Assembly (NCBI RefSeq): GCF_035621495.1
Contig: NZ_CP141821.1
Coordinates: forward strand, 586,760 to 650,759
Length of the DNA: 64,000 bases
Origin: Thermococcus sp. SY098
GTDB lineage: Archaea; Methanobacteriota_B; Thermococci; Thermococcales; Thermococcaceae
Direction: 5' to 3'
The position numbers were made by a program, and so were the translations under genes. Within the stretch, counting starts at the first letter, position 1. Each line of letters opens with the position of its first letter. This document shows positions 8,693 to 39,747 of the stretch, in pieces. The notes below the pieces were generated by a model that worked only from the letters and a program-made list of their open reading frames with translations, was not told where the DNA came from and made no database searches.

Positions 8693-8880
8693 ATTTCCGC
8701 CAGCGCTTCGTGGGAAGCGAAGCTTCCCGACGTGTTGGGACTTTGTCCCAACATGCGAAGCAAAGGGCTGAAAATGTGCCCCGGGGGAGCGGAGGGAACT
8801 CACGGCTCGCCTTCGCGCTCATTCCCCACGGTTGCCCGGGGCATTATAAATTTCACACATTCAAACTTAAGCTTTTTTCA
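8693..8880 (+). ncRNA. GC-rich structured non-coding RNA candidate
   Basis: An island of high GC in a lower-GC genome, the classic signature of structured RNA in hyperthermophiles. Clear stems: GCTTCG/CGAAGC (8705-8710 with 8756-8761) encloses GGGAAGC-GAA-GCTTCCC (8712-8728) and TGTTGGGAC-TTT-GTCCCAACA (8733-8753), a three-way junction. A second domain is closed by the nine-pair TGCCCCGGG/CCCGGGGCA (8777-8785 with 8835-8843) and contains GAGCG/CGCTC (8787-8791 with 8816-8820). TATA-like CTTAAAATAT lies about 25 bases before the proposed start and a T-run (8873-8878) follows. I see no RNase P or SRP RNA signature. Ends are approximate. Confidence 0.6.
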
Positions 8881-18906: not shown

Positions 18907-19279
18907 AAGGGGATTTGGAAAAATTGAGGTTGAGATTAATGAAGATCTTTGGAAGAAAATAGAAGATCTCAGCGAAAAATACAAGGTTAGTGAGGATTAC
19001 ATCCTAAGGATAATCCTTACTGGGGAATTTAAAACCCCCAATGAAGACGTGCAGAACCTTGAGAAAGAAGTGCAAGAGCTCGAAAAAAAGGTATATGAAC
19101 TTGAAAAGAAGTGGGCACCCCTCAGATATAAAGCCTATGGAGTTAGTGAAGACAACAAAATTTTGGCTATAGAGCTGAGCGGGCTTTTGGCTGAAAACAC
19201 GCAGCTTAAAAGGTTTTTAAGGAAAAAGGTCAAGCCAAATTTTGAGCTTAGAAAACTTATTGAATACTACATCCGATAA
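18884..19279 (+). CDS. Ribbon-helix-helix-like/coiled-coil protein
   Basis: A 131-residue protein, family unknown to me. The N-terminal 50 residues (KIEVEINEDLWKKIEDLSEKYKVSEDYILRIILTGE) look like a strand-helix-helix unit similar to ribbon-helix-helix DNA-binding proteins; residues 55-78 form a coiled coil (NLEKEVQELEKKVYELEKKW). The GTG start at 18884 lies about 10 nt after GGAGG; TTG 18890 is possible. It is last in the glycosylase operon and stops six bases before the box C/D RNA. Confidence 0.65.
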   Translation: MRLKIKPERGFGKIEVEINEDLWKKIEDLSEKYKVSEDYILRIILTGEFKTPNEDVQNLEKEVQELEKKVYELEKKWAPLRYKAYGVSEDNKILAIELSGLLAENTQLKRFLRKKVKPNFELRKLIEYYIR

Positions 19280-19285
19280 AATTAT

Positions 19286-19342
19286 AGCGGATGATGAGTA
19301 AATTTAAGCGGAGCGATGAAGAACCCTATGAGCGCTGACGCT
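19286..19342 (+). ncRNA. Box C/D sRNA, predicted guide for C34 of tRNA-Met
   Basis: Terminal stem AGCG/CGCT (19286-19289 with 19339-19342), box C ATGATGA (19291-19297), degenerate D' CGGA (19309-19312), degenerate C' GCGATGA (19313-19319) and box D CTGA (19335-19338). The D guide contains CCCTATGAGC (19324-19333), exactly complementary to GCTCATAGGG at 29395-29404 in the intron-containing tRNA-Met gene of this window. The fifth base before box D (G19330) pairs with the first anticodon base, C34. Cm34 in elongator tRNA-Met guided by C/D RNA is known in archaea. The D' guide target is unknown. Confidence 0.85.
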
Positions 19343-19373
19343 TTATTTTCTTCTACGGGGGAGTGTGGTAGCT

Positions 19374-22300
19374 ATGATGGGATTAGCCGAGATTGAGAGA
19401 AAGGCATTTGATTTGATGGCTACTTCTATCAGAAAATACGAATTTATAGAGAGATGGAAATTTGAAGGAAAAACCATAAGGTTACCATTCCAGAGAGAAG
19501 CTGAGCCAGGTGCATTGTTTGTTTTCTCAAGAGAGATTGAAGTCCCCAACGATGGCCTTAAATGGTTCCTAAAAGTTTCTATGGAAGGAAATGCTTTAGT
19601 AAAACTTGACGGAACAGCATATGGAACAATAGATGATGTTCACACTTACATACCGATTCGTCCTGGAAAGCATAAGCTTGAGCTCATAGTATCTCCTCTA
19701 ACAATGTTTGGATACCACAAATGGCGTATTAAAATTGATTATGCAATGCTCATTGGGATTATGTGGGAACCTTATGTCTTAGCTCAAAGACTTCTTGATT
19801 TAGTGAGCTTCATTGAAGTAATACAGGAAGAAGATTTGAAAGAAGCTTTAATGAAGGAACTCTCAGATATCCTTATTCGGGTTAAGAGCGTTCCGAATAT
19901 TAAGCAGATAACTCTCCTAAGGATGCTCCTTCATGATGGAGGTTTGGGGATTAAAGAGCTCAAAATTGGACGCTTTGATGTAAGGGATGTCAGACCTGAT
20001 TACATGTTTCTCTCTGCGGTGTATGGAATTGGTGCTATGAAAGGAAAAATTGAAGATATTCCCAAGCCGAGAAGAGAACACTATCTAAAGGAAATTAATA
20101 GAATACTCGAAGAGCTTGAAGATGCACTTACCAGACTGAGAAGGATATTCCCAAAAATCGGCAAAGCTTATGCTTTCGCGCATTCTCACATAGATGCTGC
20201 TTGGCTGTGGACATATGCCGAAACAAAACAGAAGATTTTGAGAACTTTTTCGACAATTGAGAGACTCATGAGGAGATATGGAATAACATACATCCAAAGC
20301 TCAGCCCAGTACTATGAATGGCTTGAGGAACTTGACAAAGAACTCTTTGAGAAAGTTAAAAAGTATGTCCGAGAAGGAAAGTGGATATTGGCTGGAGGAA
20401 TGTGGGTCGAAAGTGACGTTCAGCTTATAGATGGTGAATCCCTTGTGAGACCAGTTCCTGTACGGCCAAAGATATTTTCTTGAAAAATTCGGGAGAATAG
20501 CAAAGATAGGGTGGCTCCCTGACACATTCGGCTTCTCTGCTTCCCTGCCGCAAATAATGAAGAAGAGCGGGATTGAAGTCTTTGCTACGTATAAGCTCCT
20601 GTGGAATGAAAGGAATGAGTTTCCATATCATGCCTTCATATGGAAGGGAATTGATGGGACAGAAATCCCTGTTCACATTATGATGAGCTACAAGTCTTCA
20701 ATGACTGCTAAAAGTCTCTACAAGCAGTGGAAGCGCTATAAAAACAAATACGAAGTTCCCTTCCTGCTTTATGCTTACGGATATGGTGACGGTGGCGGAG
20801 GAATTACATGGGAAATGGTTGAAATGATGAAGCACATGAACAAAGTGCCCCACATTCCCAAGGTGGTCAAAGGGTATGAGGATGAATATGTAGCAGAGCT
20901 CAAATCATGCATTGATAATATGCCTACATGGGAAGGCGAACTTTACGTTGAGGTACACAGAGGGACATATACAACCAACCTTAAGATGAAGAAGTACATG
21001 GCTGATGCTGAGTCAGTTTTGAGAAGTGCTGAAATCTGGAGCACAATAGCTGAAATGCTTGGACTTGTTGAATATCCAAAAGAAGAGCTTGAAAAGCTCT
21101 GGAAGAAGATTTTGCTGCATCAGTTCCATGATGTTCTGCCTGGCTCATCAATAAGGGAAGTTTATGATGAGGCTATTGAGGACTTAAAGAAGGTAATCAG
21201 AGAAGCGGAGGAAATAATTCACAGTGTATTGGAGAGAATTGCTGAGAAGGAAGGCAATGACTTAGTCTTCAATGACCTGCCCTGGAAGAGGAGAGAGGTG
21301 GTTGAGGTTAATGGAGAATACCACCTCCTCGAGGCTCCACCTCTGGGCTGGAAACTCTTTGAGCCTATTGAAGCTAAGGAAGGGGTTAAGGTTAGAGATG
21401 AGAGGGATAAAATAATACTCGAAAATGAGTATCTAAGGGCAGTTATAAACAAGGATGGGGAACTAATTTCTCTCTATGACAAAGAGAATAAGAGAGAGGC
21501 ATTAAGAAGCACAAGCAACGTCTTGATGGCACATATAGATACGCCAGGTATGTGGGATGCTTGGGATATAAATGAGGACTTCCTGATTCAGGGTGAGAAG
21601 CTCAAGACTCTTGAAGAAGCTAAGGTGGTTTACCAGAGTCCATTAATTGCGGTCATCAAAGTGGTCAAAGGCTATGGCAACTCAGGAGTAACTCAGTTTA
21701 TAAAGCTCCGCAAGGAATCAAAATTATTAGAGTTTGAGACTAAAGTCGACTGGAAGGACAAGGAAATTCTGCTTAAGGCATGGTTCAACTTCAACACACA
21801 CAACTGGAGCTCTTTCTATGATATCCCTTATGGTGTAATAGAAAGACCAGCGGTAAGAAACACTCCTTGGGAGCAGGCCAAATTTGAGGTTCCAGCTCTG
21901 AGGTGGGCAGATGTCTGCGATGGTGATTATGGAGTTGCTATAATCTGCACGTCAAGGCATGGCTATACAAACTGGGACTCAAAGATTGGACTCAGTCTGC
22001 TCAAGTCGCCAATTTATCCAAATCCATGGAGCGACTTAGGAGAGGGTGAATTTACATATTACATCTATCCTCACAAGGGAGATTGGTTTGAGGGAGAAGT
22101 TTACAAGAGGGCACTGGAAGTTTGGTCAAAGCTTAGGGTTGTCAAGGCAAAGAGAGTTGAAGGAAAAGCTAAGGAGTTCAGTTTTATGAGGACGGATGCG
22201 GTAGTTGGAGCGTTGAAGAAAGCAGAAGATGGAAACGGATATATCTTAAGGCTGTACAATCCATCAAAAGAGGAGCTTGAGGTTGAACTGCCAAGGGAAG

Positions 22301-22398
22301 GCATTGAGATGGATATGATTGAACTCAAGGAACTTGGAAAGGTCAGTAGAAAAGTCAAGCTAAAACCCTTTGAGATCAAAACGATTAAGATTTCTTAG
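19374..22398 (+). pseudogene. GH38 alpha-mannosidase interrupted by a +1 frameshift
   Basis: Two frames together encode one glycoside hydrolase family 38 protein of about 1000 residues. Frame one (to TGA 20483) has the zinc-binding AHSHIDAAWLWTYAE and nucleophile region GGMWVESDVQ followed by GESLVR; after an extra C in the CC at 20451-20452 the sequence continues as QFLYGQRYFLEKFG in the other frame, through LPDTFGFSASLPQIM and HQFHDVLPGSSI to the end. All else appears intact, so this is either a recent inactivation or a sequencing error. ATG 19374 is the likely start. The product would trim alpha-mannosides. The 3' end overlaps nob1 by 14 bases. Confidence 0.9.
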
Positions 22399-29362: not shown

Positions 29363-29470
29363 GCCGGGGTAGCTTAGCCTGGTCAAAGCGCCCGGCTCAT
29401 AGGGCGACTCCCCTTCGGGGGAGCCTGAGAAACCGGGAGATCCGGGGTTCGAAGCCCCGCCCCGGCACCA
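29363..29470 (+). tRNA. tRNA-Met (CAT), elongator type, with 30-nt intron
   Basis: Acceptor GCCGGGG/CCCCGGC with discriminator A and encoded CCA, D arm GCTTAGCCTGGTCAAAGC, anticodon stem CCCGG/CCGGG with loop CTCATA-A, and T arm CGGGG-TTCGAAG-CCCCG. Anticodon CAT is at 29398-29400. A 30-base intron (29402-29431) follows base 37. It forms a bulge-helix-bulge: CTCA/TGAG helix flanked by bulges TAG (29400-29402) and AAA (29430-29432), with an inner hairpin CTCCCC-TTCG-GGGGAG. The start GCCGGGG and body fit elongator tRNA-Met rather than initiator or tRNA-Ile2. The box C/D RNA at 19286-19342 matches its anticodon/intron junction. Confidence 0.95.
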
Positions 29471-39690: not shown

Positions 39691-39747
39691 GGGCGATGAT
39701 GACAATTTCGCTAGCTGAAGGTGATGACTACCCTCGCAACTGAGCTT
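39691..39747 (+). ncRNA. Box C/D sRNA, predicted 23S rRNA guide
   Basis: Canonical in every box: box C ATGATGA (39696-39702), 12-nt guide, box D' CTGA (39715-39718), 2-nt spacer, box C' GTGATGA (39721-39727), 12-nt guide, box D CTGA (39740-39743), with GGGC/GCTT ends able to pair. The D' guide CAATTTCGCTAG complements the universally conserved 23S segment UAGCGAAAUU (the I-CeuI/H71 region) over 10 nt; N+5 points to the C of that UAGC. The D guide CTACCCTCGCAA target is unknown to me. The 3' end lies against the tail of the convergent gene. Confidence 0.92.

Follow-up and report, generated by a model that had tools for sequence, protein, structure and literature searches.

The segment at positions 19286–19342 of the window, by which we mean the whole stretch of 64,000 nucleotides analysed here, very probably encodes the Thermococcales wobble-methylation guide of tRNA-Met, a box C/D sRNA that would direct 2′-O-methylation of C34 on the unspliced elongator pre-tRNA-Met. 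Such a guide is already known in kind and the copy in the window is an ordinary one: C/D-guided Cm34 of elongator tRNA-Met in archaea, which the earlier note had called established, is indeed published, a separate sRNA (sR49 in Pyrococcus, and further guides in haloarchaea) having been described as guiding Cm34 of the intron-containing tRNA, with part of the intron pairing with the guide, so that methylation must come before splicing (Grosjean 2008; PMC2584109). A review counts four Pyrococcus sRNAs for position 34, with that for tRNA-Met among them (PMC7994747), and sRNA-dependent 2′-O-methylation of C34 of tRNA-Met has been shown for H. volcanii according to the literature citing the Haloferax work of Joardar 2011 (PMC4033218; PMC6601510). 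What is added here to the known precursor-first model is comparative support, from which the extent of the duplex under selection can be read: it comprises exactly ten bases, of which three belong to the intron, and base 11 of the guide is free to drift.

The sRNA has the composition of an archaeal box C/D sRNA, with boxes C (RUGAUGA) and D (CUGA), a terminal stem, internal C′/D′ boxes and guides of approximately 12 nt (here 11 and 12 nt); direct reading of the sequence confirmed box C, box D, the degenerate D′ and C′ and the terminal stem as named in the earlier note. The features at this locus are as follows:

19286–19342, + strand: box C/D guide sRNA of the sR41 type, predicted to guide Cm34 of pre-tRNA-Met (cmscan RF01126; Thermococcales orthologues)
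19286–19289, + strand: terminal stem, 5′ side AGCG (sequence read directly)
19291–19297, + strand: box C, ATGATGA (sequence read directly)
19298–19308, + strand: D′ guide GTAAATTTAAG, 11 nt, without a conserved target (varies strongly between species)
19309–19312, + strand: box D′, CGGA, degenerate (sequence and parsed relatives)
19313–19315: spacer GCG between D′ and C′, a 3-nt K-loop
19316–19322, + strand: box C′, ATGAAGA (sequence and parsed relatives)
19323–19334, + strand: D guide ACCCTATGAGCG, exactly 12 nt (sequence and parsed relatives)
19324–19333: selected core CCCTATGAGC of the D guide, with G19330 as the +5 base opposite C34
19335–19338, + strand: box D, CTGA (sequence read directly)
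19339–19342, + strand: terminal stem, 3′ side CGCT, giving a stem of 4 bp (sequence read directly)
19250–19266, + strand: putative archaeal promoter AGAAAACTTATTGAATA, BRE/TATA-like (sequence inspection)

The putative promoter is contained in the final codons of the gene upstream, approximately 27 nt 5′ of the sRNA, and transcription of the sRNA would be driven by this BRE/TATA-like stretch. The matching position in relatives of genus group g4, a sister lineage that we take to be Thermococcus in the narrow sense, reads AGAAAGCTTATATCC.

The covariance search that had been proposed as a check spoke for the C/D assignment, returning orthologues across the Thermococcales and, in the cmscan of the window, a match to RF01126 (‘sR41’) of 57.6 bits against a gathering cut-off of 54 (E = 1.6e-10; called span 19287–19340). 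In a genome-wide search, the set-up of which differs from that of the window scan, the same locus scored 43.2 bits (E = 5.7e-11), below the RF01126 cut-off. The match to this family of Pyrococcus C/D sRNAs extends over the whole length, with the same boxes and the same D guide, CCCUAUGAGC, but with a different D′ guide. The haloarchaeal sR-tMet model (RF02163), of a guide for which C34 of elongator pre-tRNA-Met is likewise the target (Joardar et al. 2011, cited in PMC4033218 and PMC6601510), covers exactly 19286–19342 at 29.2 bits, short of its family threshold of 50 bits, and is longer, at 72 positions compared with the 57 nt of the window sRNA. The names conflict in the literature: the tRNA-Met guide of Pyrococcus is given as sR49 and sR41 as an orphan in PMC2584109, against which the Rfam sR41 consensus itself bears the tRNA-Met guide.

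The target lies in a tRNA gene of the same window:

29363–29401, + strand: elongator tRNA-Met(CAT), 5′ exon up to A37 (sequence and conservation)
29395–29404, + strand: guide target GCTCATAGGG, seven exon and three intron bases, C34 at 29398 (pairing)
29402–29431, + strand: tRNA-Met intron, 30 nt, at 37/38 (sequence inspection)
29432–29470, + strand: tRNA-Met 3′ exon with encoded CCA (sequence inspection)

The splice sites form a canonical bulge–helix–bulge, in which CTCA at 29396–29399 faces TGAG at 29426–29429 in a 4-bp helix flanked by the 3-nt bulges TAG and AAA. No tRNA of the window was reported by ARAGORN, which was run with bacterial settings, and the call of tRNA-Met is based on the sequence and its conservation in 91 genomes. 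Rfam found 44 tRNAs in the genome, including two further CAT tRNAs, both without an intron: the initiator (L148), recognized by its GGG/CCC anticodon stem, and L165, read as tRNA-Ile2. Since no other CAT tRNA with an intron was found, 29363–29470 was assigned as the elongator. In P. furiosus introns occur in tRNA-Met and tRNA-Trp only (PMC7668247). The genes of the sRNA, at 19286, and of tRNA-Met, at 29363, are separate and lie approximately 10 kb apart; a distance of approximately 6–12 kb is seen in many genomes (also in G075, G079, G081 and G093), and in genomes of the Pyrococcus group the two genes are far apart.

The pairing proposed in the earlier note was recovered base for base: CCCTATGAGC is perfectly complementary over 10 nt to GCTCATAGGG at 29395–29404, the fifth base before box D, G19330, faces C29398, that is C34, and, with the intron starting at 29402, seven of the pairs are exonic and three intronic. 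The D guide is thus directed against the anticodon loop with C34 at the +5 position, as in a tRNA-Met Cm34 guide, and its pairing runs into the intron by three pairs that are kept on both sides. Within the window, the only copy of CCCTATGAGC is that of the sRNA and the only copy of its complement is the target at 29395–29404, with 0.09 matches expected by chance and two matches in none of 100 shuffles. The exonic stretch GCTCATAACC is also present in the initiator, in tRNA-Ile2 and in the spliced tRNA-Met, each of which offers seven pairs to the guide, compared with ten in the precursor; the corresponding duplex energies at 85 °C, from a protein-free nearest-neighbour extrapolation, are −1.9 and −4.8 kcal/mol, respectively.

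The independent evidence for the pairing, comparative in kind, is on the guide side. CCCTATGAGC is kept in all 31 loci fetched as best covariance-model matches by a search that did not demand the core, these loci coming from related species and not representing 31 independent events. Among 25 distinct anatomies, for which the parsing pattern presupposed the core, so that its invariance is taken from the 31 loci instead, the entropy amounts to 0.9–1.9 bits per site in the D′ guide and to 1.2 bits at base 11, next to the core (A 14, G 10, T 1). Homologous loci keep the boxes, a point on which the earlier note had staked its reading: canonical relatives carry ATGATGA and CTGA, with conservation across six genera, and box C is invariant in 26 distinct canonical-form relatives, picked by a pattern that itself contains ATGATGA. 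By a hand tally from which recognized pattern matches other than sRNAs were excluded, a perfect guide stands before CTGA or CCGA in 89 of 94 Thermococcales (36 CTGA and 53 CCGA). The target GCTCATAGGG with a tRNA-like tail is identical in 91 of the 94, including all 74 good genomes, and was not found in three incomplete ones (G092, G003 and G053).

In every strong covariance-model match, as in other archaeal orders, the guide bases whose only possible partners lie in the intron show the same conservation as the bases facing the exon, and this comparison supports the earlier proposal that modification should precede splicing. A guide-only scan of named genomes returned Methanobrevibacter, Methanosphaera, Methanovirga, Pyrohabitans and other Hydrothermarchaeota, together with scattered chance matches in bacteria. 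A tRNA search that left the intron unconstrained was applied to 16 of these archaeal genomes; all recognizable tRNA-Met introns began with GGG, the pattern having caught no clear tRNA in the remaining genomes of the 16; this intron start is thus also found in Methanobacteriales and Hydrothermarchaeota. As the start of the intron is constrained by the tRNA and by the splicing motif as well, conservation of the target is to be read as consistency and not as covariation. In the sRNA–intron comparison suggested in the earlier note, both the core and GGG are conserved; a by-eye comparison of guide base 11 with intron base 4 across relatives revealed no consistent pairing, and the duplex was therefore set at 10 bp. 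In the Hydrothermarchaeota and relatives (L194, L195, L197, L203, L208, L222 and L234) the D′ guide is itself conserved, reading TGATGGGCGA before CTGA, hinting at another second target in these organisms.

That the element resembles a C/D sRNA by chance, in intergenic sequence that happens to match the tRNA, would be conceivable in that ten-base matches do occur and, in other genomes, coding sequences here and there contain the literal guide-box pattern; the Rfam E value of 1.6e-10, the conservation across six genera and the absence of doubly matching sequences among the 100 shuffles speak against it, and by the comparative record this explanation is already refuted, its residual probability being negligible. 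Hardly more credible is the view that the sRNA mainly serves an rRNA by means of its D′ guide, with the tRNA match secondary. Many archaeal C/D sRNAs guide rRNA methylation, and the D′ guide of the g4 relatives does match 23S rRNA; that of the window, however, lacks conservation beyond close relatives, and a search for an rRNA target of GTAAATTTAAG gave only G·U-rich or flank matches, none of them convincing.

Improbable, though less so than either of these, is methylation of C34 on the spliced tRNA-Met and on the initiator through the seven exon pairs, the match to the intron being incidental. All three CAT tRNAs share the seven bases, and Cm34 is reported for the initiator tRNA-Met of P. furiosus, which lacks an intron (PMC7668247); this report complicates a strict need for the intron. 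A conserved dedicated initiator guide, sought as the pattern GGTTATGAG followed by box D, was found neither in the genome itself nor in Pyrococcus, the matches elsewhere being scattered and variably spaced; given Cm34 on the initiator, either the 7-bp match suffices there or something else acts on it. Were the match incidental, however, the three guide bases opposite the intron would be expected to vary as base 11 and the D′ guide do. No such drift is observed; all three persist in the remodelled g4 form and in archaea of other orders. Seven pairs are, moreover, weak at the growth temperature.

Guidance on the unspliced precursor, the reading that we prefer, would proceed from a box C/D sRNP presumably assembled with L7Ae, Nop5 and fibrillarin, the D guide of which would hybridize to ten bases of the pre-tRNA-Met, seven in the anticodon loop and three in the intron, and so position C34 for 2′-O-methylation, probably ahead of splicing. 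Because the same seven bases are common to all CAT tRNAs and to the spliced tRNA-Met, discrimination would depend on the intron pairs, which would set the elongator precursor apart from the initiator, from tRNA-Ile(CAT) and from the spliced product. This offers a simple reason for the kept start of the tRNA-Met intron, the sole part of the target that separates the elongator precursor from the initiator and tRNA-Ile(CAT). As the target overlaps the bulge–helix–bulge, guide binding and splicing should exclude each other on one molecule.

Among other known systems, the guide in the pre-tRNA-Trp intron (sR50; Cm34 and Um39) is likewise of the C/D type and directed at C34 of a pre-tRNA with an intron, but lies inside the intron, whereas the window sRNA is a separate gene approximately 10 kb from its target. 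The human SNORD97 and SCARNA97, also of the C/D type, direct Cm34 of elongator tRNA-Met (PMC6601510); they are a eukaryotic snoRNA and scaRNA, and common descent with the window sRNA is not claimed.

The g4 genomes were mostly missed by the covariance search, and Rfam at its cut-offs found none of seven remodelled g4 loci; the guide is present there in front of CCGA, the usual box D in most of g4, and in G024 its locus lies near 287.6 kb. The canonical form is retained in G047, G053 and G064, which branch early within g4. The g4 flanks that were read show, after the same upstream gene, two tandem sRNAs, the first with other guides and the second with the tRNA-Met guide. A g4 sRNA matched over model positions 1–37 is not the orthologous tRNA-Met guide with an altered D guide, but the separate upstream sRNA; a weak covariance-model match in G024 falls on the published sR61 (2070055–2070116). 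In the upstream sRNA (L116, L118 and others) the D′ guide AGCGAATTGC is largely conserved and fits 23S TGCAATTCGCT, and the D guide reads, by species group, GAGGACTGGCC, which fits a 16S-side stretch, or GAGCAACGCTAT, for which no good rRNA match was found. In L287 and L288, of the Pyrococcus group, an apparent C′–D half of the upstream sRNA directly precedes the tRNA-Met guide.

Of 45 distinct parsed sequences, 44 are remodelled (43 from g4 and one, L077, from g2) and one, L079 of the Pyrococcus group, served as the canonical U:U control; L279, also from g4, is not among the parsed sequences. The 3b:3n position of the K-turn is C·C in 32 of the remodelled sequences, G:C in eight, C·U in two, A·C in two and U:U in none, and −1b:−1n is C:G in 41 and G:C in three. 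The canonical form combines ATGATGA with CTGA, i.e. U:U, in 26 of 26 distinct sequences, which were selected by a pattern containing ATGATGA. The outer stem reaches the 14-bp counting limit in 22 of the 45 sequences and is shorter (4–12 bp) in the rest, two records having ended at the fetched ends. A C at 3b and C:G at −1b:−1n favour K-turn folding in Mg2+ (PMC6298567; PMC5689011), and a Watson–Crick 3b:3n pair prevents ion-driven folding (PMC6298567). Folding in Mg2+ may thus be predicted for most, not all, of the remodelled sequences; the idea that all g4 K-turns fold with ions was dropped, with eight of the 44 carrying the Watson–Crick G:C pair.

The D′ guide of the g4 form is NTCCAAGACGGG in all 43 parsed g4 sequences and pairs with 23S CCGTCTTGGA, where the other Thermococcales that were read have CCGTCTTGAA. 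A search with a 27-base pattern and up to three mismatches, which could hide other variants, located the 23S stretch in 61 genomes and gave no match in 33; in hand-counted rows, it reads CTTGGA in 38 of 38 g4 genomes and CTTGAA in 23 of 23 genomes of g1, g2, g3 and g5. All 38 CTTGGA genomes have the remodelled guide and all 23 CTTGAA genomes the canonical one; the 23S difference seems to have arisen once, within one clade, and is to be counted as one event and not as 61. In the other Thermococcales, a search before CTGA for a guide to the ancestral 23S sequence brought up no conserved sRNA. Since the conserved D′ guide fits a substitution that, among the genomes read, is confined to g4, one RNA probably serves both tRNA-Met and 23S, the new rRNA sequence and the guide fitting it occurring together. 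On balance, we lean towards a g4 guide remodelled in the same genomic slot that would methylate both C34 of pre-tRNA-Met and a new 23S uridine, at about position 649 of the LSU match in G023; the forms with C at 3b and C:G at −1b:−1n may fold their K-turn in the absence of L7Ae. The g4 form thereby offers a natural comparison of one guide on two different K-turn frames.

In the window, the GH38 α-mannosidase gene adjoining the sRNA is split into ORFs at 19365–20483 and 20557–22398, with Glyco_hydro_38N divided between the two in different frames. From the shared start, the reading frame stops after 369 amino acids, compared with 451 in L031, and in L028 and L029 the same gene shows no stop within the fetched locus (486 and 489 amino acids, respectively); the split may reflect a frameshift or a sequencing error. 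Two further guide RNAs were identified by Rfam in the window: a second C/D sRNA, sR39, at 39692–39745 on the + strand (75.2 bits) and an H/ACA guide, Pab160, at 8775–8842 on the − strand (65.3 bits).
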